64,000 nt of DNA, from NCBI GenBank assembly GCA_027490215.1, contig JAIXYO010000019.1, positions 62,001-126,000 on the forward strand, given 5' to 3'. The notes beneath the pieces were generated by a model. The model searched no databases. It was not told the origin of the DNA and worked only from the letters and a program-made list of their open reading frames with translations. The position numbers were made by a program, and so were the translations under genes. Below are positions 7,999 to 28,466 of the stretch, one piece after another; the first letter of the stretch is position 1; every line of letters begins with the position of its first letter. This stretch comes from Rubrivivax sp. Lineage in GTDB: Bacteria; Pseudomonadota; Gammaproteobacteria; Burkholderiales; Burkholderiaceae_C.

Positions 7999-8475
7999 TC
8001 AGATCGTCCAGCGCATCAGCGTCACGATCAGGACCAGAATACCAAGGCCAAGATTTGTCGCAACCCACTTGCGGATCTGCGCAAGTGCCGCAGCACCAGT
8101 GGCCCAATCGGACGCCACCACAGCGCGTTCAAGCCTCTTGAACAAGGCAAAGCGGATGTGCATGAAGATGGCCACCATCGCGACGCCAAGCACCGCCATG
8201 ACCGTCCAGGCCAGCGGCATCTCGAAGCTGCCACCAGCCTGCACCACCTGCTTCGCCGCTCGCCCGAGCATCCACACGCCGCTGACCAGCGCCAGCAATG
8301 AGGCGACGAGTACAGCTTGGAAGAATCGGCCGAGTACATCGCGCATCAGACGCAGCCGCACCGGCAGCTCAAGTTGGGCAACGGCTGGGCGCAGGAAGAA
8401 GTGCGCAAACACCATGCCGCCTATCCACACGATGATGGAGAGCACATGCAGGGTCTTGAGTGTCGTGTAGATCAT
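7999..8475 (-). CDS. CopD-family integral membrane protein
   Basis: Membrane protein of 158 residues with four predicted helices (about 8-28, 50-70, 86-106 and 134-155). The opening LKTLHVLSIIVWIGGMVFAHFFLRP, with its His and Trp-Ile-Gly-Gly signature, is typical of the CopD family, some members of which act in copper homeostasis; small single-domain members are mostly uncharacterised. The ATG at 8473-8475 is preceded by AGGA at good spacing. It ends the minus-strand run terC-exoD-like-copD-like and is convergent with lysA. The 135 bases before lysA hold no feature I can name beyond a weak hairpin near 7921-7935. Confidence 0.8.
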   Translation of the reverse strand: MIYTTLKTLHVLSIIVWIGGMVFAHFFLRPAVAQLELPVRLRLMRDVLGRFFQAVLVASLLALVSGVWMLGRAAKQVVQAGGSFEMPLAWTVMAVLGVAMVAIFMHIRFALFKRLERAVVASDWATGAAALAQIRKWVATNLGLGILVLIVTLMRWTI

Positions 8476-8488
8476 CAAACAGTCCTGT

Positions 8489-9094
8489 TCAAGTTGAAAC
8501 CCAGCGCATCGTCCACTCGCTGCCCCAGATCCAAGCCATCACCACCAAGCCTGAGGTGACAAACAGCGCCAAGCCCGCGGTCGTCAGGCCAAGCAGCACG
8601 GCGACGCCATCGCGAAACACCAGCCCCAATCCAACGAGCATCATCGCCAGTGCAGGCAGTACGTTGCCAAAGGGAATCGGCAGCACGATGATGACGGACA
8701 TCAACCCAACCGCCAAGGCGGTCCATGAGCGTCGGCCCGCCACTGCGAAGTGGCTCAGCCTGGCCCTGGCGTAGCGTCCGGCCAAGGAATAGGTGGACGC
8801 AAGCAAGCACAGCACTCGCTTCGCCCAATGGCTCGACATCTCGAGTTCGGCCACTCGCTGGGGAAGACATGCCCCCGAATGGCCTTGCCACATTGCCGCC
8901 GCCAGCGCAGCCATCCCCAGGCCAAGCACCGTTCCCACGCCCGGCACTGGCAGCAGGCAGGGCGTTGCCATCAGCAGCAGCAAAGCGCCGTGCGCCTCGG
9001 GGCCATGAGCCTGCGCCATGGTCTGCATCGACACCCGCTCGGCAGGCATGGCCGCTGCGGCGTCGCGCAGCCGTTGCACGATGGCCGCGGTCAT
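8489..9094 (-). CDS. ExoD-family membrane protein
   Basis: Membrane protein of 201 residues resembling the ExoD (exopolysaccharide synthesis) family. Family-like features are the N-terminal RVSMQTMAQAHGPEAHGALLLLMATPCLLPVPGVGT, then a soluble loop and four further hydrophobic segments including VLPIPFGNVLPALAMMLVGLGL. In rhizobia ExoD affects exopolysaccharide production and alkaline tolerance, but the biochemical role is unknown. The ATG overlaps the terC stop (ATGA at 9091-9094); a start 39 bases upstream is possible but less likely given the coupling. Confidence 0.8.
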   Translation of the reverse strand: MTAAIVQRLRDAAAAMPAERVSMQTMAQAHGPEAHGALLLLMATPCLLPVPGVGTVLGLGMAALAAAMWQGHSGACLPQRVAELEMSSHWAKRVLCLLASTYSLAGRYARARLSHFAVAGRRSWTALAVGLMSVIIVLPIPFGNVLPALAMMLVGLGLVFRDGVAVLLGLTTAGLALFVTSGLVVMAWIWGSEWTMRWVST

Positions 9095-10083
9095 GTCGGC
9101 GTGGCAGCAGTGGACTGCCCGCGGGTCTTCCACAGCGACACCAGCACACCACCCGCGATGAGCCCGAAGGTCACGCTGAGAGAGATGACCGGTGGGATCT
9201 TGCCGATCACGCCAACCAGGAAGATCTTCGAGCCGATGAACACGAGCACCAGGGCCAGCGCGTACTTCAGATACTTGAAGCGATGGATCATTGCCGCCAG
9301 CGCGAAGTAAAGCGCGCGCAACCCCAAGATGGCGAAGATGTTGCTCGTGTAGACGATGAACGGGTCGGTGGTGATTGCAAAGATGGCCGGCACTGAGTCG
9401 ACCGCAAAAACCAAGTCCACGAACTCGATCAACACCAGGGCCAGGAAAAGCGGGGTGGCAAAGCGCTCGAGCTTGCCGCTCGCTGGATCAGCCTCCTGCA
9501 CCCAGAACGCGTTGCCGCGCAGTCCGTCGGTCACCCGCATGTGTCGCTTCAGGAACTTCAGTAGCGGGTTGTTGGCGATGTCGGGCATGTGGTCGGCAAT
9601 GATCCACATCTTGATCCCCGTAAAGATCAGGAAGGCGCCGAACAGGTAGAGCACCCAGCTGAATTGGCTGACCAGCGTGGCGCCGAGGCCAATCATGATG
9701 GCGCGAAGCACGATCACACCCAGAATGCCCCAGAACAGTACCCGATGCTGGTACTGCCGCGGTATCGCGAAGAAGGTGAAGATCAGCGCGATGACAAAGA
9801 CGTTGTCCATCGACAGCGACTTCTCGATCAGGAAGCCGGTGTAGTAGTCCATGCCGCTTTGGGCGCCCAGGTACCACCAGACCCAGGCACCGAAGATCAG
9901 TGCTGCGCTGATGTACCCGGCCGAGAGCAGAAGGCTCTCACGCACTCCGATCTCCTTGTCGCCCTTATGAAGGACGCCAAGGTCGAAGGCCAGAAGCGCG
10001 ACGACGATGCCGATGAAGGTAAGCCAGATCCAAGCCGGTTTGCCAAGGAAGTCAGCTGCGAAGAAGGGGATCAAGGCGTCCAT
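9091..10083 (-). CDS. TerC/Alx-family integral membrane protein
   Basis: Polytopic inner-membrane protein of 330 residues with eight or nine predicted helices. TerC signatures are clear: acidic residues within membrane segments (LLAFDLGVLHK, SLSMDNVFVIALIF, LVLIEFVDLVFAVDSVPAIFAIT) and the HRFKYLKYALALVLVFIGSKI segment. Family members are linked to manganese export and to tellurite/stress resistance. No Shine-Dalgarno precedes the start, and a 52-aa membrane ORF ends nine bases upstream, so translation may be coupled. The gene is followed by the overlapping exoD-like gene. I looked for a yybP-ykoY manganese riboswitch upstream and could not see one. Confidence 0.93.
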   Translation of the reverse strand: MDALIPFFAADFLGKPAWIWLTFIGIVVALLAFDLGVLHKGDKEIGVRESLLLSAGYISAALIFGAWVWWYLGAQSGMDYYTGFLIEKSLSMDNVFVIALIFTFFAIPRQYQHRVLFWGILGVIVLRAIMIGLGATLVSQFSWVLYLFGAFLIFTGIKMWIIADHMPDIANNPLLKFLKRHMRVTDGLRGNAFWVQEADPASGKLERFATPLFLALVLIEFVDLVFAVDSVPAIFAITTDPFIVYTSNIFAILGLRALYFALAAMIHRFKYLKYALALVLVFIGSKIFLVGVIGKIPPVISLSVTFGLIAGGVLVSLWKTRGQSTAATPT

Positions 10084-10092
10084 TGGCGTTTT

Positions 10093-10251
10093 TCAGATGA
10101 TCGCGGCCACGGCGGTACCAACACTACACAGGCCGCCAACCGCGCCCAGCAGAGCCACGTCACGCTTTTCGTTGCCAAGACGCCAAGCCTGGAAGGTGAC
10201 GGCGAACATCGTGGCAGTCACGACGGCGAGAAGGAGAACAGTGGTGTCCAT
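10093..10251 (-). CDS. Small hydrophobic ORF (52 aa) directly upstream of terC
   Basis: An uninterrupted 52-codon frame, ATG to TGA, encodes a protein with two hydrophobic segments (about residues 4-21 and 34-52) joined by a short charged loop, RLGNEKRD, as in two-helix membrane miniproteins. Its stop is nine bases before the terC start, and terC has no Shine-Dalgarno, so coupling is plausible. The ORF itself has no strong Shine-Dalgarno. No relative is recognised. It could be chance, but the hydrophobic-charged-hydrophobic architecture and position favour a real gene. Confidence 0.5.
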   Translation of the reverse strand: MDTTVLLLAVVTATMFAVTFQAWRLGNEKRDVALLGAVGGLCSVGTAVAAII

Positions 10252-10363
10252 GCGTTTTGTTGTTGCGGAGAAGGTGGTGGATCTTCGGCCGCTTCGGGTT
10301 TCGTATGAATCAGCGCCAGCGTGAGCGTGGGTGCGTATTTCCCGAAGCTCTCGGCTGATCCGG

Positions 10364-10780
10364 TCAGCCGGAGACTGCCGGGCCTCCGGAGGAAACGGCC
10401 GGCGTGGTCGAACGTCGGCGCAACACAGCGATCATTCCGCTCAGCACAACGCCCAGAACGATGAGCATTGCGCTACCGACAGCCCAGACCACCCAGACCG
10501 CCACTGAAAGTCCACCCACCAACGCGGGGGCCCATTCCAACACCGCTTCGACAACAGGCATGAAGGCCGAGAGCATTGAAGCAAGCGCGAGTGAGAACTC
10601 GTCCGGTACCCAGGGCGCAAGCCAATCCGGGACGTGCAAGACCTCGATCGCCCCCGAAGATCCCGCCAGGGCGCCTGCGCTCGAGAGCGTCCATGCTGTG
10701 ATCGTGTGGAACGCCCAGGCTGCGAGCGACCAAAGCGAGATAAGGATGAACACTGCAAACCAGCCAAGTGCGTAGAACAT
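10364..10780 (-). CDS. Uncharacterised membrane protein
   Basis: Protein of 138 residues with an N-terminal hydrophobic helix (about 2-24), a central amphipathic region with VPDWLAPWVPDEFSLALASML, and two C-terminal hydrophobic segments (about 82-118), ending in a basic/Ser-Thr tail. The ATG at 10778-10780 is preceded by AGAGGAAA at good spacing, which fixes the start; the open frame extends 40 codons further upstream without support. It lies between the NhaR-like regulator (divergent) and the terC run (same strand) and may be the first gene of that transcript. I do not recognise a family. Confidence 0.65.
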   Translation of the reverse strand: MFYALGWFAVFILISLWSLAAWAFHTITAWTLSSAGALAGSSGAIEVLHVPDWLAPWVPDEFSLALASMLSAFMPVVEAVLEWAPALVGGLSVAVWVVWAVGSAMLIVLGVVLSGMIAVLRRRSTTPAVSSGGPAVSG

Positions 10781-10854
10781 GATCGTTTCCTCTTTGTTGA
10801 GCGGCGGCAGCAGATAGTCTTCAGCGATTCGAGAGCCGAAAAAACCAGTAGTAG

Positions 10855-10872
10855 TCAGACTTAGACTTCTGA
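10855..10872. promoter_or_regulatory. Inverted repeat in the divergent nhaR-like promoter region
   Basis: TCAGA and TCTGA form a 5-bp inverted repeat separated by eight bases, 21 bases before the regulator start codon and 75 bases before the divergent membrane gene. LysR-type regulators commonly bind imperfect dyads (T-N11-A) in the divergent region beside their own gene, so this is a reasonable operator candidate. It is short and could be chance. Confidence 0.35.
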
Positions 10873-10892
10873 TTTCCCGATGTGAGATCAGC

Positions 10893-11774
10893 ATGCTCAA
10901 CTATCGCCATCTCTACTACTTCTGGGTCGTCACCAAGGAAGGCGGCTTCGCCCGCGCGGCCGAGCGGCTGGACATGGCGGTGCAGACCATCAGTGCGCAG
11001 GTCCGTGAACTTGAGAAGGCGCTGGGGCACCAGTTGCTTAAGCCGGCCGGCCGCGGCGTCGCAATGACCGAGGCGGGCCAGGCCGCCTTTGCCCGGGCTG
11101 AGGAGATCTTTCAGCTGGGGCAGCTCATTCCGGAGGATGTTCGCGAGGCCGCCAGTGGCAAGGTCGCACGCTTGGCTGTTGGACTGTGCGACGGAATCTC
11201 GAAGCTGGCGGCTCATGCGTTGCTGTCGCCGGTCTTGGCGACGCCAACGCTGCGGCTGCTCTGCCATGAGGGCGAGTTCGAGCAATTGCTGGCTGAACTG
11301 GCGCTGCACCATCTGGATCTGGTGTTGGCGGGTCAATCTGCGCCCCACAACCCGAATCTGCGCTTGACGAGTGAACGGCTGGTCGAGTCACCCGTCGACT
11401 GGTACGGGCCCTCGGCCCTGGTGCACAAGGCCGCAGTGGCTGGGTTTCCGCAATCGCTGGCAAGACTGCCTGTGCTGCTTCCAACGGGGCACTCGGCGCT
11501 TCGACCCCGTCTGGACCGCTGGTTCGATTCGCAGGGACTGCGGCCGCACATCGTCGGAGAGTTCGAGGACAGCGCCTTGCTCGCCGTATTTGCCGCCCGA
11601 GGCCTCGGCGTGTTTCCGGTCAGCCGGTTTGGGGCTGCGGACGTGGCGCTGATGAGAGGCCTACGGCTTTTGGGTCCTTGCGAAGGTGTGCTGGAAGAGA
11701 TCCACGCCATCCGCTCGCGCCGCGGGCAGCATCATCCACTGGTGCTGCAAGTGATGGCTGCGGCTCGCTCCTGA
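10893..11774 (+). CDS. nhaR: LysR-type transcriptional regulator, NhaR-like
   Basis: Regulator of 293 residues with an N-terminal winged helix-turn-helix (residues 1-62: NYRHLYYFWVVTKEGGFARAAERL, then VQTISAQVRELEKALG) and a periplasmic-binding-like effector domain. The NYxHLYYFW opening, the RWFDSQGLRPHIVGEFEDSALL segment and EEIHAI near the C-terminus resemble E. coli NhaR, which responds to sodium and alkaline pH. The symbol is by this resemblance; no nhaA antiporter gene is nearby. It is divergent from the minus-strand membrane genes and convergent with the TerB-like gene downstream, so its likely target is the terC-side transcript, its own gene, or both. Confidence 0.8.
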   Translation: MLNYRHLYYFWVVTKEGGFARAAERLDMAVQTISAQVRELEKALGHQLLKPAGRGVAMTEAGQAAFARAEEIFQLGQLIPEDVREAASGKVARLAVGLCDGISKLAAHALLSPVLATPTLRLLCHEGEFEQLLAELALHHLDLVLAGQSAPHNPNLRLTSERLVESPVDWYGPSALVHKAAVAGFPQSLARLPVLLPTGHSALRPRLDRWFDSQGLRPHIVGEFEDSALLAVFAARGLGVFPVSRFGAADVALMRGLRLLGPCEGVLEEIHAIRSRRGQHHPLVLQVMAAARS

Positions 11775-11794
11775 ACACGCTCGCGCGGATTCGG

Positions 11795-12229
11795 TCAGGT
11801 GGCGCGGTGGCGTGCCGACGTCGGGAGGCTCGACTCCTCACCATCGAACAGCTGCCAATGTCGCCGGGCGGCCTCCAGGACGATGGCTTCGCCGTCGGCA
11901 AGGTGGCCGTCTGCACGCGCGGCGGCCAAGGACAGACGCAAGACAGTCCTCTGAAGAGCAGGATCCGAGATTTCGGCCATCAATGACGCCAAGGCGGCGT
12001 CATCGACGTTGCTCATGAGAGAGCCTGTTTCGTACCCACCCAGCAGCAGCTCTTCGCACAGCGTGTGAACGATGTGCGGCAGCAGACGGGGCTCCAGACC
12101 GAGCTCGCGCTCGGCACCCAGTTGATTGAGGATGTCGAACTCGGAACTGCACACATGACCGTCGGAAATGAGAACCAGCGCGACGATGCGTGCAGCGGCT
12201 TCGGGGCTGTTGTGGGGGTAACTTCGCAT
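11795..12229 (-). CDS. TerB-like protein, copy A
   Basis: Helical protein of 144 residues. It opens with RSYPHNSPEAAARIVALVLI and contains DGHLADGEAIVLEAARRHW near residues 113-131, the duplicated acidic helix pattern of TerB (tellurite-resistance B) domains. It is clearly paralogous to the protein at 17411-17827: both begin M-R-S/T-Y-P-x-N-S-P and share similar acidic sites. The ATG at 12227-12229 is preceded by AAGGAA; upstream codons in this frame lack a start with support. It lies 58 bases downstream of an HPF-like gene on the same strand. TerB-like domains are proposed to bind metal ions at the membrane; the role here is unknown. Confidence 0.75.
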   Translation of the reverse strand: MRSYPHNSPEAAARIVALVLISDGHVCSSEFDILNQLGAERELGLEPRLLPHIVHTLCEELLLGGYETGSLMSNVDDAALASLMAEISDPALQRTVLRLSLAAARADGHLADGEAIVLEAARRHWQLFDGEESSLPTSARHRAT

Positions 12230-12287
12230 GGAAGAGTTCCTTTGGTGTTGGTGTCGTGATTGAGGGCAAGGACAGATGGACGAGTCG

Positions 12288-12722
12288 CTACCTCTTGGGG
12301 GCATGGAGGGTGGCCGCGAGCGAGCGCTCATCGAACCGAAAGCGGCGCGGCGTTTCGGCAACCGCGACAGAGCTCCTTATCCTCGCGCGGACAGGCATCA
12401 GCGCCATGGATTGATGCTTCGCCGTCGTTGCACGGTGGAGTTGCAAAGCGACCCGCTGCCGTATACGGGATGCCACTTCCTCGACCGAGTCTTGCCACGA
12501 ACGGGAAGTGGCGCTGATGGCCACAGGCCCGCTACCGCGTACGAGGATCTCGACACTGCAGCGTTTGTCGACGCCGCCTGCAGGCCCATTGATGTCGTCT
12601 AGCCTGACCTTGATGCGTGCCACCAGCCCCTGCAGGCGGCCAAGCGCTCTGTGAAACCTGTCCGTCGTGCGCTGCTGCCAACGCAGGCCTTCAAGGTCGT
12701 TGGAGCGGAAGTGAAGCTTCAC
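12288..12722 (-). CDS. HPF/RaiA-like ribosome hibernation protein, copy A
   Basis: Protein of 144 residues. The N-terminal 100 residues resemble the sigma-54 modulation/ribosomal S30AE family (HPF, RaiA), which binds idle ribosomes at the 30S decoding site: a short beta strand KLHFRSND, a basic helix, then VRLDDINGPAGGVDKRCSVEI. The C-terminal tail of about 45 residues is basic and unlike long-form HPF. I chose the GTG at 12720-12722 because the protein then aligns end to start with the paralogue at 16006 and AAGG lies upstream; the open frame continues 52 codons further. It is followed by the TerB-like copy A gene. Confidence 0.7.
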   Translation of the reverse strand: MKLHFRSNDLEGLRWQQRTTDRFHRALGRLQGLVARIKVRLDDINGPAGGVDKRCSVEILVRGSGPVAISATSRSWQDSVEEVASRIRQRVALQLHRATTAKHQSMALMPVRARIRSSVAVAETPRRFRFDERSLAATLHAPKR

Positions 12723-12822
12723 GATTAAGCCCTTGCGAAGTTGCGAGAGCTCGACTTTGTTGCCAATGCAGACTCGGAGAAAGCAGATGCGCAGTGAGTC
12801 ATCGTTCGGAAAACACGAAGCT

Positions 12823-12838
12823 GTCAAATTTGCGTCAA
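12823..12838 (-). promoter_or_regulatory. Direct repeat TTGAC-N6-TTGAC upstream of HPF copy A
   Basis: On the minus strand two TTGAC units are spaced 11 bases start to start, about one helical turn, 100 bases before the HPF-like start. Such 11-bp direct repeats are the usual target geometry of OmpR/PhoB-family response regulators. One unit extends to TTGACA, a consensus -35, but no good -10 follows at 17 bases. The surrounding 210-base gap between 12723 and 12932 holds nothing else I can support. Confidence 0.3.
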
Positions 12839-12932
12839 CTCTGGCCGGCGTACGGTGCGGCCAGACGAGGGCCGGCACCGTTCCTTGACTGGCACTGCCG
12901 CACGATCAGAAGCGATGCGGCTGCGCCCGGCC

Positions 12933-13106
12933 TTAGCTTCCGCCGAACGTCTGACCCCATCGCACCAGGCTCACAGAGTCGGGTTCCACCATGCGGGTGC
13001 GTGACGACACGGCAGTGCCGGCCTGAACCGCACACACCCACTTTCGCGGCGCCAACCCGAGCACCGCCAGGGTGTAGCTGACGTAGATCTGCTGCAGGAA
13101 ATTCAT
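12933..13106 (-). CDS. Small ORF (57 aa) coupled to the lipid kinase gene
   Basis: A 57-codon frame whose ATG overlaps the stop of the lipid kinase gene by four bases (ATGA at 13103-13106). It starts MNFLQQIYVSYTLAVLGLAP, a weakly hydrophobic helix, and then has no recognisable motif. The ATGA overlap is the main evidence. It could be a genuine coupled peptide, a shortened remnant of a larger downstream gene, or chance. Confidence 0.4.
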   Translation of the reverse strand: MNFLQQIYVSYTLAVLGLAPRKWVCAVQAGTAVSSRTRMVEPDSVSLVRWGQTFGGS

Positions 13107-14119
13107 GCCGCAGCCTCTGACGCGTTGGGCATGCCCACTGCGCCAATGGCTTGGAGGAGATACAAGGGCTTGTCCAGCACACGAATATCGATGGGCGCGC
13201 GCATGTGTGCTACCTCACCGTCGAACGCCACCACGATCTCTCTGCGACCAGGAGCGAGCGTCGGCTGAACCACCATGTGCTGGAACTCGAATCCCTCCAC
13301 GCCGGCGGCTTCACCCAGCCTGCCCATCGCTCCGTGCAGCATCAGGCCGATCATCGACAACGTTCCGATGGGCTGCAACATCAACGCGGCCATGTTGCCA
13401 TGGCCGGGCGTGCCTGCCAGCGTGTCCTCTGGCTCCGCGCCGAACTGCTGCAACTGCAGCCGGTTATTGCCCACAAAGAGCGTCAAGGTCTGCACGTCGC
13501 GAACCGTGCCGCCCATCTCGATGTGCAGTCGCAACCGGCGCTGTGCGCGCAGTAGCGTCGCACAGGCTGCCACGAATGCCACCCAGCGACTCCGGCCGAA
13601 GCGGGCTTTGTAGGCCTCGCGGTCCTGCAGGAGTTCGGGGTAGACGCCCAGGCTGGCGTTAACCAGAAACACCCGGTTGTTGATGGCTGCCACCTGCACT
13701 GGCATCGGGCGCGCATCCAGCAACAGCCGCGCCGCAGCGGCCGGTTCGGCCGGGATGCCGTGCGTCCTGGCAAAGTAGTTGAAGGTACCGTAAGGAATGA
13801 CACCCATCGCGCAGCCCAGGTCGTGCGCGGCCTGCGCCACCGTGTTGAGGGTGCCGTCGCCTCCGACGGCGACAACAGCCGTGCGGATGGCGACGGCCTT
13901 TGTCGCAGCCTGGTGCGACACGCAGGCCAACTCGGCAGGGCTGCAGAACAGCAAGTCTCCTCGGCGTCCGCCCGCCCGCAGCGCGGCTTCGATGACTTCT
14001 CGCTTTGCCTCCGCGTCGCTGCTGCCTGCTGCCGCATTGACGACGAACTGGAGCGGTGACGCAACGTCGATTTCGGGGAAAGCGACTGAGAAATCCAGTT
14101 GATCAGCATTCGCGGTCAT
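13103..14119 (-). CDS. Diacylglycerol kinase-family lipid kinase
   Basis: Protein of 338 residues of the DagK/YegS/BmrU lipid-kinase family, which phosphorylates diacylglycerol or related lipids using ATP at the inner face of the membrane. The diagnostic motifs are NAAAGS near residue 28, the nucleotide site VVAVGGDGTLNTVAQA near residue 83, PYGTFNYFARTHGIP near 109, and the C-terminal GEVAHMRAPIDIRVL. Length is normal. It sits between YqhA upstream and a small coupled ORF and the HPF/TerB genes downstream on the same strand. The lipid substrate cannot be told from the sequence. Confidence 0.88.
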   Translation of the reverse strand: MTANADQLDFSVAFPEIDVASPLQFVVNAAAGSSDAEAKREVIEAALRAGGRRGDLLFCSPAELACVSHQAATKAVAIRTAVVAVGGDGTLNTVAQAAHDLGCAMGVIPYGTFNYFARTHGIPAEPAAAARLLLDARPMPVQVAAINNRVFLVNASLGVYPELLQDREAYKARFGRSRWVAFVAACATLLRAQRRLRLHIEMGGTVRDVQTLTLFVGNNRLQLQQFGAEPEDTLAGTPGHGNMAALMLQPIGTLSMIGLMLHGAMGRLGEAAGVEGFEFQHMVVQPTLAPGRREIVVAFDGEVAHMRAPIDIRVLDKPLYLLQAIGAVGMPNASEAAA

Positions 14120-14133
14120 GGCCCTGGGCGCCT

Positions 14134-14652
14134 TTATGCCTTCTCCCGCGTCAACCGCTCTGCAAAGGAAATCCCGATGGCAGAAAGCACGAAAGTGAAG
14201 TGAATGACAGCCACCATCGTCACTACCTGTATGTTTTCCAAAGTCAGGTCGCCACTCAAGTAAGTCTTCAATGCATGAACGCCTGAGATGGAGATGATGG
14301 CGAATGCGAGCTTTAACTTGAGGTTGTAGGTATTGACGTGGTCCAGCCAGTCCGGCTTCTTCATCTCCTTGCTGTCAAAGTGTCCGGTGGTGACGAAGAG
14401 CGATACACCCGCCAGCGCCACAACCCAAACCAACTGCGCCACCATCGTCATGTCCACCAGCTCAAGCACCTTGATGATCAGGTCAATCTTTTCGAGCTCG
14501 CCAAACAGCAATGTGCTCATCAGCTTGTAGGTTTCCAGCAGGAACTTTCCCAGGATGCCGAAAATGATGGTGACCAGACCCACATAGAAGAACAGCATGG
14601 TGAATCGCATGCCGTAGAGCAGCGACCCAACGCCTGACAGTAGTTTTTCCAT
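14134..14652 (-). CDS. YqhA family (UPF0114) membrane protein
   Basis: Integral membrane protein of 172 residues with four predicted helices (about 15-38, 70-90, 113-132 and 140-162). It matches the UPF0114/YqhA pattern: the N-terminal FYVGLV helix, LELVDMTMVAQLVWVVALAG, the soluble loop with PDWLDHVNTYNLKLKLAFAIISISGVHALKTYL, and a final HFTFVLSAIGISF helix. Function of the family is unknown. It precedes the lipid kinase gene by 14 bases and is likely its operon partner. A TTGACG at about -35 distance is present upstream, but the -10 is poor. Confidence 0.9.
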   Translation of the reverse strand: MEKLLSGVGSLLYGMRFTMLFFYVGLVTIIFGILGKFLLETYKLMSTLLFGELEKIDLIIKVLELVDMTMVAQLVWVVALAGVSLFVTTGHFDSKEMKKPDWLDHVNTYNLKLKLAFAIISISGVHALKTYLSGDLTLENIQVVTMVAVIHFTFVLSAIGISFAERLTREKA

Positions 14653-14712
14653 TCTTGATTGCCCTTAAGCAGAGTAGAGGGTGACGTCAAACAGTTATTG
14701 AGATGCAAGACA

Positions 14713-15801
14713 TCAATCGTGGCGCAGCAAGTCACCGAAGACGGTGTGCTCGCCCTCCTTGCGATCTGCGCCGGGTGCGTCGTACAGGACGAGCCACTTG
14801 GCTTTGCCACCCGACAACGTCGGCGGCAGGTCGCAGATGGCCTCGGCTCGGTTGGTGCCATGTCCGTGGGGCAGTGGCACAGACTCGGTCAGCGCCGACT
14901 CGAAGCGCACAGGCTCGCGATTGGCGGCCAGCAAGTGCCGGGCGGCAGGCCACTTGAAGACGCGAATGTCACCGTTGAGCACCATGGTCGGGCCGGCCAG
15001 GATGTAGAGGTCGTCGCCTGAGAAGTGCAGGTCCCGCACGCCCAGGCCGTCGAGTTGCAGGAAATGCTTGCGGATCAGCGTGCCGCTGTCGTCCAGGGCC
15101 ACCAGGTGCAGCTGGTCACCGCGGGCCTCTACAGCGATTTCGAGCAGCGCCGACCAGCCGCGCAGCACCGGTCCACGCAGCCCGAGCAGCAGCCGGTGGC
15201 CGTCGACGGCCAGGCCCTCGATGTCGAAGCCGTTGTCCTTGCCAGGGATCGCCATGTAGGGACCGAAGTGAGGGTCATCGGCCAGCGCGCGGGTGAGCAG
15301 GTTGGTTTTCGCGTCCCCCTTCAGGCGGAGCGCACGCCTTCCATCCTGCGCCTGTCGTACCAGACACGGCTCGCCCTTGGCGTCGAGCTCGAAGGGCAGG
15401 CGGGCCAGCAGGCGCCGGTTGCCGTCCAGCGCCACCTTTGCGAGCCGCTTGGCGTTGTCGGCGTGGTCCCGGTCCGGTTTGGCGTTCTTGCGCTTCAGGC
15501 CATGCGAGCCAACCACCCAGAGGAAACCATCGGCGACGGCCATGCCTTCCAGGTCGGCCTCTTCGCCGGCTTCGCCGGGCAGATCGAGCAGATCGGCCAG
15601 CGGGAAGTCACGCACCTCGCCGAAGCGCACTGCCTCTCGCCCCACGGGGTCGAGCAGGCGAAGGCGGTCCAGGCCGCAGGCTTCGTCGCCCGCCACCCAG
15701 AGCCACTCGCCGGTGAAGGCCGCACCGGACAGATTGGATTGAACCAGGGAGCCAGGAGCGAACTCCAGACGGACGGCATTGGCGGTTCGAGCATTGGGCA
15801 T
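14713..15801 (-). CDS. DUF3616 domain protein
   Basis: Protein of 362 residues without a signal peptide. Repeated beta-propeller-like segments are visible (GEWLWVAGDEACGLDRL, DLEGMAVADGFLWVVGSHGLKR, FDIEGLAVDGHRLLLGLRGPVLRGWSALLEI, VRDLHFSGDDLYILAGPT), a pattern typical of DUF3616, whose function is unknown. The start at 15799-15801 follows GGAGAAA at good spacing; the frame stays open upstream but has no supported start. It is divergent from the HPF-like copy B gene and precedes yqhA on the same strand by about 60 bases. Confidence 0.85.
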   Translation of the reverse strand: MPNARTANAVRLEFAPGSLVQSNLSGAAFTGEWLWVAGDEACGLDRLRLLDPVGREAVRFGEVRDFPLADLLDLPGEAGEEADLEGMAVADGFLWVVGSHGLKRKNAKPDRDHADNAKRLAKVALDGNRRLLARLPFELDAKGEPCLVRQAQDGRRALRLKGDAKTNLLTRALADDPHFGPYMAIPGKDNGFDIEGLAVDGHRLLLGLRGPVLRGWSALLEIAVEARGDQLHLVALDDSGTLIRKHFLQLDGLGVRDLHFSGDDLYILAGPTMVLNGDIRVFKWPAARHLLAANREPVRFESALTESVPLPHGHGTNRAEAICDLPPTLSGGKAKWLVLYDAPGADRKEGEHTVFGDLLRHD

Positions 15802-16005
15802 AGGGTGTTTCTCCAGAGGGTGACGTGCCAAGCAGGCTCGCGTGCTGCAACGCGTGCCGGCCGGAGCCGCCAAACCCCGAAGTTTGCGGCCGCAGCTTCG
15901 ACCGATGTTCAGTTTTATCCGATTCTTGTGTTCTTGAAAGACTGCTTTTCCAGAGCCGCCAAGCACCACACATTCCGTCTGTCCCTCAACCGATGGAGAT
16001 CCGTG

Positions 16006-16347
16006 ATGCAAGTGCTCTTCAACTCTCGCCATTCGCAAGCCGCTGACATGCGCGACCTGACCGAACGTCGCGTGCGCTTCGTGCTGCGACGCCTTGGCTG
16101 GCTGGTGCCACGCGCCGAGGTGCAGCTGTCGGACGTGAACGGACCGCGTGGCGGCATCGACAAGCACTGCCAAGTGGAACTCAGGACTGACGGCGCAGGG
16201 TCCGTGGTTGTCACCTCGGTGGCGAAGGACTGGCGCACTGCGCTGGATCAGGCGCTGGCTCGCGCCGCACGGTTACTGATGCGGCTCTGGCGCCGCAGCA
16301 ATGACGCCCGCCGCCTGCGTCAGCGCTTCATCAGTCACGAACGCTGA
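16006..16347 (+). CDS. HPF/RaiA-like ribosome hibernation protein, copy B
   Basis: Protein of 113 residues of the S30AE type: a short N-terminal beta strand MQVLFNSRH, a helix, VQLSDVNGPRGGIDKHCQVELRTDG, then a C-terminal helix rich in Ala and Arg. Length and single domain fit short-form HPF. GGAG lies seven bases before the ATG. It is paralogous to copy A at 12288-12722 (shared D-x-NGPxGGxDKxCxVE core) and starts a plus-strand run with the BI-1 family, zinc-ribbon and TerB-like copy B genes. Confidence 0.8.
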   Translation: MQVLFNSRHSQAADMRDLTERRVRFVLRRLGWLVPRAEVQLSDVNGPRGGIDKHCQVELRTDGAGSVVVTSVAKDWRTALDQALARAARLLMRLWRRSNDARRLRQRFISHER

Positions 16348-16374
16348 ACTCGAACGAACCCAGGAATCGACACC

Positions 16375-17091
16375 ATGAACTCCATGACGCCAATCCCCTT
16401 GACCGCTCGCCCGGAAACCACGCTTTCAGCGCCGAGCGGCGCGGGCCACACGACACCCACGGATGCAGCCGGTACGAGTAGGGTGCTGCGCAACGCCTAT
16501 GCCTTGCTCTCGATGACGCTGCTGTTCAGCGCGGCCATCGCTGCTGCCAGCGTAGCGTTCCAGTTGCCAGCGCCGGGCATCCTGCTGACCCTGGGCGGCT
16601 ACTTCGGCCTGCTCTTCGCCGTCTACAGATTCAAGAACAGCGGCTGGGCCTTGCCGGCGGTGTTTGCGCTGACGGGCTTCATGGGCTACTCGCTGGGACC
16701 GGTGCTGGCCAAGTCGCTGGCACTGCCCGGTGGTGCACAGGTCGTGGCCCTGGCCTTGGCGGCCACGGGCGCCACCTTCCTGGCTTTGTCGGCCTGGGTT
16801 TTGACCACCCGTCGCGACTTCAGCTTCATGGGCGGCTTCCTGTTCGCAGGCATGGTCATCGCGCTGATTGCTGGCCTGGGCGCGATGTTCTTCCAGATAC
16901 CAGCCCTGTCCCTGGCGCTGGCCGCGATGGTCGCGCTGCTGTCAGCGGGGCTGATCCTCTTCGAGACCAGCCGGATCGTCACCGGTGGTGAAACCAACTA
17001 TGTGCTGGCCACCGTGGGTCTGTACGTCTCGATCTTCAACCTGTTCACGAGCCTGCTCAGCCTGTTCGGCTTCGGTAGCGCAGACGAATGA
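16375..17091 (+). CDS. Bax inhibitor-1/YccA family membrane protein
   Basis: Integral membrane protein of 238 residues with a polar N-terminal 35 residues and seven predicted helices. It fits the BI-1 family (YccA, YbhL): the RNAYALLSMTLLFSAAIAAAS first helix, the ALPAVFALTGFMGYSLGPVLA segment and the C-terminal LFETSRIVTGGETNYVLATVGLYVSIFNLF with conserved acidic residues. E. coli YccA interacts with the FtsH protease, and some BI-1 proteins leak calcium in a pH-dependent way. It lies 27 bases after the HPF-like gene, and its stop overlaps an ATG in the following zinc-ribbon frame. Confidence 0.93.
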   Translation: MNSMTPIPLTARPETTLSAPSGAGHTTPTDAAGTSRVLRNAYALLSMTLLFSAAIAAASVAFQLPAPGILLTLGGYFGLLFAVYRFKNSGWALPAVFALTGFMGYSLGPVLAKSLALPGGAQVVALALAATGATFLALSAWVLTTRRDFSFMGGFLFAGMVIALIAGLGAMFFQIPALSLALAAMVALLSAGLILFETSRIVTGGETNYVLATVGLYVSIFNLFTSLLSLFGFGSADE

Positions 17092-17111
17092 ACTACCAAC
17101 CGGAGCACACC

Positions 17112-17378
17112 ATGAAATGCCCCACCTGTACCGACACCGCGCTCGTGATGAGCGACCGCCAAGGCGTCGAGATCGACTATTGCCCGCAATGCCGTGGCGT
17201 CTGGCTGGACCGTGGTGAACTCGACAAGCTGATCGAGCGTTCGGCGGCAATGACGCCAGCCCCGGTCGCTAGCGCGTCAGCACGTTCACAGCCGCAATTC
17301 GTGGACTCTGACTACGAACACGGGCGAAGCACGCAGGGCCGATACAAGAAGTCCTGGCTGAGCAATATCTTCGACTGA
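17112..17378 (+). CDS. Zinc-ribbon protein (TFIIB-type, COG3809-like)
   Basis: Small cytoplasmic protein of 88 residues with a two-CxxC zinc ribbon: CPTC near the start and CPQC about residue 25, followed by the signature RGVWLDRGELDKLIERS. This is the zf-TFIIB arrangement found in many small bacterial proteins of unknown role. I chose the ATG at 17112 because CCGGAG lies at good spacing; an upstream in-frame ATG at 17088 overlaps the BI-1 gene stop and may couple translation. It lies between the BI-1 and TerB-like copy B genes. Confidence 0.85.
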   Translation: MKCPTCTDTALVMSDRQGVEIDYCPQCRGVWLDRGELDKLIERSAAMTPAPVASASARSQPQFVDSDYEHGRSTQGRYKKSWLSNIFD

Positions 17379-17410
17379 CCCCTTACCGAAAACCCCTGGC
17401 GGAGAACACC

Positions 17411-17827
17411 ATGCGCACCTATCCCGCGAACAGCCCACAAGCAGCCGCCCGCATCGTCGCGCTGACGGTGTTGGCAGATGGCGATATTGGAGAAATGGAG
17501 ATCGACTGGCTCGACCGCCTGTCCGTGCATCAGCAGTTGGGCCTGGCGCGGCAAGAGTTGCACGAGATACTGGATACCTTCTGCGAGGACCTGCTTTCAA
17601 GCGACCAATTGAAATGGGCCGACGTCTGTCCGGTGGACGAACGCACGCTGGCAGATCTGATGGGCGAGATACAAGACCCCGCGCTGCGGCTGAAGTTACT
17701 GCGCTTGTGCGTCGAGCTTGCCGAAGCCGACGCACATGTCGCCGAAGGCGAATCGATCGTGCTGACCGCCGCTGTCGAGCACTGGGGGCTGCACTACGAG
17801 ATGGTTCGACCCTCACTCCGAGTCTGA
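17411..17827 (+). CDS. TerB-like protein, copy B
   Basis: Helical protein of 138 residues, paralogue of the protein at 11795-12229. It begins MRTYPANSPQAAARIVALTV and has the paired acidic helices LADGDIGEMEIDWLDRL and EADAHVAEGESIVLTAAVEHW, where the Asp/Glu positions match TerB metal sites. It ends the plus-strand run that starts with HPF copy B. About 100 bases of unremarkable sequence separate it from the convergent ABC transporter gene. Confidence 0.78.
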   Translation: MRTYPANSPQAAARIVALTVLADGDIGEMEIDWLDRLSVHQQLGLARQELHEILDTFCEDLLSSDQLKWADVCPVDERTLADLMGEIQDPALRLKLLRLCVELAEADAHVAEGESIVLTAAVEHWGLHYEMVRPSLRV

Positions 17828-17927
17828 GAGCATGCGTTCGAGGCGCAGTGAGGCCGACATCGCCCAAGGCCGGCAGCTGATGTGACTGCGGCTGCAAACC
17901 CGCAGAGCGACCCAGTCGGCGCCTGGC

Positions 17928-18938
17928 TCAAGGCAAGCGCCCTTCCTCTGCTGCATGACAGGCCACCTGCACGCCGCCGATCGCTTGCAGCGCTGGCCTT
18001 TCGACGCGGCAGCGCTCGTTCGCGTACGGGCAGCGCGGGTGGAAGCTGCATCCGGTGGGCGGCTCCAGCGGGTTCGGCAGGTCGCCCTGCACCGGCTGCC
18101 GCACGCGGCCGCTCATCGCGACATCGGGGATCGAATCGAGCAGCATCCGGGTGTAGGGATGGGCTGGGCGAGAGAACAGCGTGCGGCGGTCGGCCAGTTC
18201 GACGATGCGACCCAGCACCATCACGCCAACCTGATCGGCCACATGGCGCACCACCGCGAGGTTGTGCGAGATGAAGAGGTAGGTCAGGCCGTGGCGCTGC
18301 TGGATCTCCTGCATCAGGTTGAGCACCTGCGCCTGCACCGACACATCGAGCGCCGAAGTCGGCTCGTCGCAAACCAGACACTCCGGGTTCGATGCCAGCG
18401 CGCGCGCGATCGAGATGCGCTGCCGCTGCCCGCCGGAGAACTGGTGCGGCAGCTTGTCGGCATCGTTGGTAGACAGGCCGACCGAGGCCAGCAGTTCTGC
18501 AACCCGCTCGCACAGCGCCGCGCGGCCCGACAGCAGACCATGCTCGACCAGCGGCTCGGCGACGATGTCAGCCACGGTCCAGCGTGGGTTCAGGCTCGCA
18601 TACGGATCCTGGAAGATCATCTGTAGACGCCTGCGCAGCGCGCCGGCCTGGCCTGAGGCGAAGGTCTGCGTCATGTCGATGCCGTCGAGGCGCACCTCGC
18701 CCGAGGTGGGCGTGTGCAAGCCGACGAGCAGGCGCGCCACCGTGCTCTTGCCGCAGCCCGATTCGCCGACCAGGCCCAGCGTCTGCCCCCGCTGGATGGC
18801 AAAACTGACGCCATCGACCGCGTGGACAAACTGGGGCACGCGACGCTCGATCACCCGAGCCAGCCACGGTGCCGACACATCGAAGGTCTTGCTGAGTTCG
18901 CGCACCTCGACCAGCGGCGAGGTCATGAGCGGCGTCAC
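17928..18938 (-). CDS. ABC transporter ATP-binding protein, OppF/DppF type
   Basis: ATPase subunit of 336 residues of a dipeptide/oligopeptide-type importer. Walker [11 protein letters not shown], signature [15 protein letters not shown], Walker [16 protein letters not shown] and the C-terminal oligopeptide-transporter domain with its Cys cluster ([17 protein letters not shown]) are all present. I used the GTG at 18936-18938, which overlaps the upstream ATPase stop (GTGA) and follows GGGGGAG; an ATG lies twelve bases downstream at 18924-18926. It is the last gene of the importer operon. Confidence 0.92.
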
Positions 18939-19909
18939 CGCGGCTCCCCCGCGTCGTGCAACCAGCACGCGGCGCGGCTCGCGCCAACGGGCATCAGCTC
19001 GGGCCGCTCGCTGCGGCAGCGCGCCCAGGCCTGCGGGCAGCGCAGGTGGAACGCACACCCCTCGGGAATCTCACCGAGGCGTGGCATCGCGCCGTCGATC
19101 TGCAGCAGCCGTTCGCGCTCGCCGCTCATCGACGGGATCGCGCCCATCAGCCCGATGGCGTACGGATGTGCAGGGGAGTGAATCACATCGCGCACCGGCC
19201 CGATCTCGACGATGCGACCGGCGTACATCACCGCCACGCGGTCGCAGGCCTCGGCGATCACGCCCATGTCGTGCGTGACCAGCATCACCGCCATGCCGCG
19301 GTCACGGCACAGCTGCTTCAGCAGCGCGATCACCTGCGCCTGCACCGACACATCGAGCGCGGTCGTCGGCTCGTCGGCAATCAGCAGGCGCGGCCCGGCG
19401 GCGAGCGCCAGCGCGATGACCACCCTCTGCCGCATGCCACCCGAAAACTGGTGCGGGTACTGCGCCAGCCGCTGCGCTGCGCCGCTGATGCCGGTCTCTT
19501 CAAGCAGGCTCACCGCGCGAGCCACCGCTTCGGACTCGCTCAACGGCAGATGGGTGCGGATCGTCTCGACCAGCTGCTGGCCGATCGTCAGCAACGGGTT
19601 CAGCGCCGTCATCGGGTCCTGGAAGATGCTGCCGATCTGCCGGCCGCGCAGGCGGCGCATCGCATCGCCCGCCAGGGTGTCGATGCGCTGGCCGTCATAC
19701 ACGATGCTGCCACCGCTGATGCGGCCAGGTGGTTGCAGCAAGCCGATGATCGCCGCGCCGGTCAGCGACTTGCCCGCACCGGATTCGCCGACGATGCCCA
19801 GCACCTCACCCGGCGCGATACCGAACGACACCTCGGACAACGCACGCAGGCTGCCATGCCGCGTGGTGAACTCGACGCAGAGCTGATCGACTTCGAGCAA
19901 GGGCTGCAT
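18935..19909 (-). CDS. ABC transporter ATP-binding protein, OppD/DppD type
   Basis: ATPase subunit of 324 residues. Walker [11 protein letters not shown], signature [15 protein letters not shown], Walker [15 protein letters not shown], and the C-terminal Cys motif [17 protein letters not shown] typical of peptide importers, are visible. The third Walker A position before Lys is Gly, and Ser follows, so the site is intact. The gene begins two bases after the permease stop and is coupled to the second ATPase downstream. It should pair with it in an asymmetric dimer. Confidence 0.93.
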
Positions 19910-28278: not shown

Positions 28279-28392
28279 AAACAGCGCTACATTGCATTCA
28301 TTGTCGCGGAACATTTCTTGCAGTAGCTGAGTTGTCTCCTCCACCGCCCTCCGGTGGATTCAGCCCAAGGCAGCGATGCCTTGGGCTTTTTT
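28272..28392 (+). ncRNA. Candidate small RNA or ilvA leader/attenuator
   Basis: A short transcript of about 120 nt is suggested by a -10-like box at 28261 and a perfect intrinsic terminator ending at 28392. It would contain a 6-bp hairpin (CCACCG-N5-CGGTGG, 28341-28357) before the terminator. No gene upstream on the plus strand could use this terminator: coq7 ends 570 bases earlier and osmC is antisense. It may be a free-standing sRNA or an attenuator 75 bases before ilvA. An 18-codon frame from GTG 28270 to TAG contains two Ile, one Val and one Leu, too few for a convincing attenuator peptide. Confidence 0.45.
28362..28392 (+). terminator. Rho-independent terminator upstream of ilvA
   Basis: A perfect 11-bp stem (AGCCCAAGGCA / TGCCTTGGGCT) with a GCGA loop is followed by five T residues on the plus strand. 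On the minus strand there is no T-run, so it acts on plus-strand transcription. Confidence 0.9.
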
Positions 28393-28466
28393 ATGTACGC
28401 GTGCACCACATGATCCGCTCCCGTTGGCCGATGGCGCCGCGGGCGTACCCGCTCCCGGAGATCCCC

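Follow-up and report, generated by a model that had tools for sequence, protein, structure and literature searches.

The closest described systems are the HPF/RaiA (pY) ribosome-hibernation factors (PF02482), the ter tellurite/stress operons, in which TerB-like and TerC proteins recur together, the Alx-type TerC of Escherichia coli, which is under alkali and Mn2+ control, and the NhaR regulon of the same species. This regulon includes nhaA, osmC and pgaA, and NhaR is also reported to bind the promoters of rmf and rsd (PMC10003395). In E. coli, NhaR is therefore already known to be connected with hibernation, with a sign opposite to the one predicted here. The present study concerns a stretch of 64,000 nt of Rubrivivax sp. 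(assembly GCA_027490215.1, contig JAIXYO010000019.1, positions 62,001-126,000), hereafter the window, in which HPF-like and TerB-like genes each occur twice near a gene for a NhaR-like regulator of the LysR family. What is shown here, by computation, is which genes the region holds and how far their neighbourhood is conserved, the operator with the spacing of its promoter, and the fold of one HPF-like protein (HPF_B). The region is probably (we give it a probability of about 0.7) a NhaR-type (LysR family) cation/alkali regulon with an accessory ribosome-hibernation factor among its members. The initial annotation had read the same genes as a duplicated pair; its observation is real and was partly misread, and the finding is more interesting as regulation than as duplication.

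The locus has in common with the E. coli NhaR regulon a NhaR-like LysR protein, a similar T-N11-A core in the binding site and a connection with a hibernation gene (PMC10003395; PMC6307784). It differs in that the hibernation gene is an HPF gene near the regulator gene, in that the candidate targets include BI-1, TerB and TerC, and in that activation is predicted, not repression. As in the ter operons, TerB-like and TerC genes recur together in the loci compared here, but the TerC of the window belongs to the Alx subfamily, the regulator is of another type, and no TerD-type protein was found among the 15 open reading frames (ORFs) of the window that were scanned (8.0-17.8 kb; the search for such proteins did not extend to other parts of the genome). 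In contrast to the Alx-type TerC of E. coli, no riboswitch was found ahead of TerC in an Rfam scan of positions 8000-19000 at E<=1, and a LysR-type site is predicted instead. Finally, the two HPF-like proteins differ from typical HPF/RaiA factors in being accessory copies that score at or under the Pfam cut-off and are tied to a NhaR-like gene.

The NhaR-like regulator and its predicted composite operator

The regulator gene (10893..11774, + strand) encodes a LysR protein for which NhaR (NF008284) is the best NCBIfam model, with 176.1 bits against 75.6 bits for the next best. This NhaR model is also matched by all 18 LysR proteins sampled from the loci, with E values down to 1.9e-82, the full ranking of models having been made for the window protein only; the LysR profile gave no match in the PDB at E<=1e-20. 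A NhaR-like LysR gene stands head-to-head with HPF in 50 of 91 HPF rows, namely 20 of 43 at the family level, 17 of 18 at the order level, 13 of 20 at the class level and none of ten further rows; these ten stem from nine loci that were retrieved with TerB_B or its plasmid relative and are mostly of the window's island kind. Among the 16 class-level rows of at least 90 bits, 13 show this arrangement (in two of these 13 the LysR gene is truncated where the contig ends), a BI-1 gene follows downstream in 12, and TerB was found in none of these 16 loci. TerB is thus an optional companion, and what the loci share is the regulator together with its predicted operator. In the clade of the window, regulator and HPF are separated by genes for a lipid kinase, YqhA, DUF3616 and a phosphoesterase, so that the LysR gene is found next to TerC at the far end.

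These counts rest on gene order read over 57 loci, 40 more loci and 20 class-level loci, contexts having been fetched for the stronger matches of each survey. The family survey contributes 43 of 54 HPF places, with ten weak places outside the count together with locus L081, where a LysR gene is head-to-head with HPF and TerC lies behind. The order survey contributes 17 of 49 places, plus one HPF (L140) from a locus chosen for TerB, which the order-level search had missed; the profile counts are lower bounds because at most 16 candidates were scored per genome. The class survey contributes 20 of 37 places (two of the 37 being those of the window itself), one strong place of 85.7 bits at a contig end was left out, and several of the class-level loci are short contigs.

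An expectation-maximisation motif search on 46 intergenic regions between NhaR-like LysR and HPF genes, from which the window was excluded, yielded a composite motif of 46 bp, from which a position weight matrix (PWM) was built. The motif consists of TTCG-N7-CGAA, a gap of 16 nt and a half-site A-T-C-T-G-C-TTTT that overlaps the -35 element of a sigma-70-type promoter. The best match in the whole window (21.5 bits) is located ahead of HPF_A-TerB_A (12774..12819, - strand) and reads TTCG-N7-CGAA, 16 nt, ATCTGCTTT; the second (21.3 bits) precedes the HPF_B operon (15909..15954, + strand), and the third and weakest (12.1 bits) falls in the interval between the LysR gene and the ORF on the TerC side (10836..10881, - strand). 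The fourth best score is 2.6 bits, and 300 column-permuted matrices reached a maximum of 13.3 and an average of 2.8 bits in the window. The predicted operators of HPF_A and HPF_B each lie 51 nt before the gene start. A matrix built from 27 loci of other families returned the identical top three (9.4, 6.9 and 5.0 bits; fourth -4.8), the HPF_B operator being the top match of this matrix made without the window's family, and a matrix from the window's family alone (19 loci) recovered the HPF_A and HPF_B sites.

Over 117 loci (1.39 Mb), 129 sites of at least 12 bits were counted, 43 of them training sites, whereas five scans with permuted matrices gave 2.8 on average. Of the 129 sites, 113 are located upstream of a scored gene at a distance of no more than 400 nt (HPF, 79; TerB, 19; the small ORF, 7; TerC, 4; BI-1, 3; zinc ribbon, 1); eight of the remaining 16 are near no scored gene, six face the LysR gene only and two are otherwise placed. 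In loci where HPF_B was not found, a site precedes the next gene, which is TerB_B in L015 and L018, BI-1 in L012 and the zinc-ribbon gene in L017. Elsewhere, the genome of the window encodes two more HPF-like proteins, a stronger one of 90.6 bits that is presumably the housekeeping factor and a third copy; no operator was found at these two loci (best scores -3.1 and -10.1, respectively). A TANNNT-like -10 box occurs at a single offset in 86 of the 97 sites of at least 18 bits, with A at column 62 in 92% and T at column 66 in 96% of the 97. The predicted boxes of the window are CAAAGT for HPF_A (12754..12759, - strand; columns 61-66 of the extended alignment) and CACATT for HPF_B (15969..15974, + strand), at the same offset of the alignment. 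An operator that overlaps the -35 element at a fixed distance from the -10 box is what one would expect if a LysR-type protein activates the promoter.

The matrices for E. coli NhaR given in PMC6307784 (TcgtaAaAAac and TCgaAAAAatCtA) have the T-N11-A form. The TTCG-N7-CGAA motif has this form too and is near to them by eye, as is the site of locus L110, TTCGTAAAAACCGAA. NhaA gave no match in the genome of the window at E<=1e-10; it was found in 15 of 100 genomes of the family, and 85 of the 100, the window's genome included, had no match. Since NhaA is mostly missing, the NhaR-like proteins probably serve other targets.

The HPF and TerB proteins and their linkage

The HPF and TerB genes named by the initial annotation were confirmed at the places that it gives, as were the other genes that it names: HPF_A lies at 12288..12722 (- strand, 144 aa, GTG start), TerB_A at 11795..12229 (- strand, 144 aa), HPF_B at 16006..16347 (+ strand, 113 aa) and TerB_B at 17411..17827 (+ strand, 138 aa). 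They form two sets of true paralogues, HPF_A and HPF_B sharing 39% identity over 54 aa (E 7e-16) and TerB_A and TerB_B 48% over 127 aa (E 6e-38). Openings and cores shared by the paralogues had also been pointed out; they are real, but they are signatures of the whole families, NGPxxGxDKxC being present in 77 of 91 HPF rows and R-x-Y-P-x-N-S-P in 56 of 80 TerB rows.

By their Pfam scores, the family names are less firm than the initial annotation has them. HPF_B reaches 23.6 bits, just below the PF02482 gathering score of 23.7, and TerB_A (16.2 bits) and TerB_B (23.7 bits) are both below the PF05099 gathering score of 24.4. The structure models, which cover HPF_B and TerB_B, are supportive of the names. 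The HPF_B model (predicted local distance difference test score, pLDDT, 85) has ribosome-bound HPF/pY proteins as its best fold matches (5mmj, 7m4z and 6h4n; probability 1.00, query template-modelling (TM) score 0.73-0.78) and strongly supports a beta-alpha-beta-beta-beta-alpha fold like theirs, which is the fold of the HPF/RaiA factors. One of the top fold matches, the ribosome-bound HPF of Acinetobacter baumannii (7m4z, a 70S structure), is by sequence, too, the closest relative in the PDB (43.3 bits), and it has the NG..GG..D..C loop in common. The TerB_B model (pLDDT 83) has TerB COG3793 and PG1108 as its best fold matches; the first of these (2ou3) has probability 1.00, but an E of 0.035 and a query TM score of 0.46. 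Support for the all-helical TerB fold is tentative and weaker than that for the HPF fold.

The linkage of HPF and TerB was upheld by a survey of 200 family genomes (profile matches at E<=1e-6). Indeed, TerB was found in 38 genomes, the HPF_B family in 49 and both in 30, and the two genes lie within 10 kb of each other in 24 of these 30 and apart in six, where chance nearness would be about 0.004 per genome (for a genome of 4.5 Mb). The order HPF then TerB, co-directional and within 1.3 kb, occurs in 16 of the 30 genomes, in seven of them within 250 nt. The adjacency thus exceeds chance. The pairing had been thought undescribed, and no paper on TerB together with hibernation promoting factor was found in the open-licence literature; the same search, to which subscription papers did not belong, found no description of a NhaR-HPF unit and no paper joining three or more of TerB, HPF, Bax inhibitor and TerC.

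Neighbouring genes

Downstream of HPF_B, the presumed operon continues with a BI-1/YccA family membrane protein (16375..17091, +; Pfam PF01027, 143 bits, cut-off 34.1), which scores 220.4 against the YccA equivalog cut-off of 353 and is thus below it, and with a Zn_ribbon_TFIIB protein of 96 aa (17088..17378, +; 72.9 bits, cut-off 22). YdeO left yccA unaffected in PMC4222967. In L007, L010, L011 and L019, the genes around BI-1 remain, but BI-1 itself is truncated, disrupted or largely lost.

The block between the two HPF genes comprises a DUF3616 protein (14713..15801, -; 401.6 bits) head-to-head with HPF_B, a YqhA/UPF0114 membrane protein (14134..14652, -; 87.6 bits, cut-off 23.1), a lipid kinase (DAGK_cat; 13103..14119, -; 64.8 bits, cut-off 23.6) and the remnant of a calcineurin-like phosphoesterase (12933..13106, -). 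The remnant is degraded, with 57 aa as against 265-277 aa in relatives; it matches the phosphoesterase profile and no Pfam family, the L009 copy being Pfam Metallophos. Of the 15 other loci that have a lipid-kinase match, 13 also have a phosphoesterase match, placed behind the kinase gene. The remnant, the LysR gene and TerC are additional to the genes of the initial annotation's finding. In L008 and L012, a similar ORF of about 60 residues is located between the phosphoesterase and TerB_A, which is the place of HPF_A in the window; the L008 copy has no Pfam match.

On the other side, TerC (9091..10083, -) belongs to the Alx subfamily (TIGR03718, 409.8 bits, cut-off 246.4), as it does in all four cases scanned. 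Between TerC and the LysR gene, a small ORF (10364..10780, -) starts at ATG, is hydrophobic by eye, has no Pfam match and recurs beside the LysR gene. A gene family found in L077, L084, L085, L090 and L094 is that of a Na+-dependent bicarbonate transporter (member tested: L094), and another, in L008, L009, L011 and L096, is that of a Na/Ca exchanger (member tested: L096). Elsewhere in the window, positions 28333-28394 (+) match the Betaproteobacteria toxic small RNA family RF02278 (55.9 bits, gathering score 50).

Competing explanations and the proposed regulon

The initial annotation had proposed a functional pair of HPF and TerB that was duplicated as a unit and then inverted. The reality of both sets of paralogues speaks for it, as do the adjacency in 16 of 30 genomes and direct HPF-TerB adjacency in loci of other families (L102, L103, L104, L105 and L140). 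The distribution of the genes does not bear it out. TerB_A and TerB_B fall into separate clades (24 rows with a Shimodaira-Hasegawa-like approximate likelihood-ratio support, SH-aLRT, of 96, and 20 rows with 99) of a quick tree of 127 columns, in which 41 of 77 inner branches are open and from which two short TerB fragments were left out. HPF precedes TerB in 14 of the 20 TerB_B rows but in 2 of the 24 TerB_A rows, those of the window and L011, where alone the kind of HPF_A itself was found; these two proteins share 81% identity over 94 columns, and among the matches listed in the 200 family genomes nothing else exceeds 43% identity to HPF_A. Furthermore, each gene is commonly found on its own, TerB without HPF in 8 of 38 genomes and HPF without TerB in 19 of 49. 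As HPF_A orthologues are missing beside most TerB_A genes, duplication of the unit is refuted as far as the survey reaches, and we regard it as highly improbable; the separate clades and the rarity of HPF_A indicate that TerB_A and TerB_B are distinct paralogous lineages and HPF_A a rare extra copy in front of TerB_A. This copy seems to be under purifying selection, judged from a single sequence pair (ratio of nonsynonymous to synonymous substitution rates against L011: 0.19 when the first 95 codons are compared, 0.37 when 131 are). It is conceivable, if rather doubtful, that HPF_A is a late copy of the island HPF_B that landed before TerB_A together with its promoter: the approximately unbiased test does not reject a grouping of HPF_A with 23 island HPF_B rows (p 0.269), and the HPF_A operator has the layout and the 51-nt distance of that of HPF_B, but the operator letters of the two differ, and in the best tree, where long branches meet, HPF_A joins HPF genes from elsewhere (other genomes) with weak support (90/51), its branch having a length of 1.37 changes per column.

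Alternatively, the region could be a general stress or metal-resistance island assembled by transfer, in which HPF and TerB lie close by hitch-hiking and share no control. The lipid kinase, YqhA, DUF3616 and phosphoesterase genes do come and go, and a plasmid copy is known in Ideonella. The common operator with its fixed -10 spacing before HPF, TerB, BI-1 and TerC, and before HPF also outside the order, makes this unlikely. Searches of a plasmid collection returned few relatives (four records for TerB_B, one for HPF_B and three for TerB_A). Among those plasmids the set is thus no frequent module, which disfavours a mobile-element reading. It is similarly improbable that the operator serves another regulator, be it another LysR protein or a sigma factor, with the adjoining NhaR-like gene being incidental. 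The link between regulator and operator is a prediction, and the genome encodes a second, more distant NhaR-like LysR protein (L163; G000 C39 10651-11349; 36% identity), in whose 3.7-kb locus no operator was found; but the regions from which the motif was derived lie between a LysR gene and an HPF gene at 46 loci, and it has the T-N11-A form of LysR sites and, by eye, a resemblance to the NhaR matrices of PMC6307784.

Several observations weigh against a NhaR-type regulon. No LysR gene is head-to-head with HPF in 23 of the 43 family rows or in any of the ten rows of the island kind, the window regulator stays below the NhaR equivalog cut-off (176.1 against 219 bits) and is hence called NhaR-like, the second NhaR-like LysR protein is another candidate for the binding protein, and HPF_A has no Pfam match. 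The third site of the window, at 12.1 bits, scores less than the best permuted matrix, and the family-only matrix puts it outside the six best sites with the promoter background and fourth with the window background. Low scores (4.8, 7.6 and 1.7 bits) were obtained for three of the 46 promoters used in training, the 12-bit threshold was chosen after the 12.1-bit match of the window was known, and the 129 sites overstate the number of separate events because related loci are not independent. Sites upstream of TerB_A in several relatives without HPF_A are below the threshold (for example -2.5, 4.7, 5.0, 11.4 and 11.9 bits); in such genes a related sequence is often found about 288 nt upstream, mostly under 12 bits. 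Moreover, loss of NhaR in E. coli is reported to raise RMF and 100S ribosomes (PMC10003395), which is the opposite sign.

For the NhaR-type regulon, we infer regulator binding and its sign, the inducer, ribosome binding, transcription as operons and the roles of TerB and BI-1 as follows. The LysR protein (10893-11774) would bind the composite site and activate three units, HPF_A-TerB_A, HPF_B-BI-1-zinc ribbon-TerB_B and the unit on the side of TerC (Alx), with Na+, alkaline or related cation stress as the putative inducer. The accessory HPF_A and HPF_B would be made under this stress, and ribosomes would be parked. The Alx-type TerC and BI-1 may act in metal and Ca2+/proton balance and TerB may be accessory, perhaps binding metal, so that TerC, BI-1 and TerB together would contribute to metal, Ca2+/proton and envelope homeostasis. 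HPF and TerB would then be paired because a single regulon controls both, in many cases from the same presumed operon. LysR-type divergent units are a known kind of arrangement; here such a unit would control a hibernation factor.

The chances are about even, in our estimation, that a NhaR-type sensor is hard-wired to a distinct accessory HPF subfamily through one conserved operator-promoter, such that ion stress directly parks ribosomes and bypasses the stationary-phase route. In this reading the regulon is spread over the order and other families of the class beyond it, with BI-1 often joined and with TerB and the Alx-type TerC added within the order. If the regulon is real, a dedicated regulator gene in the neighbourhood would couple ribosome hibernation to stress from ions and pH, the operator could be used for finding further members of the regulon, and TerB and BI-1, two families of unclear role in bacteria, would gain a common regulatory context and a concrete operator.

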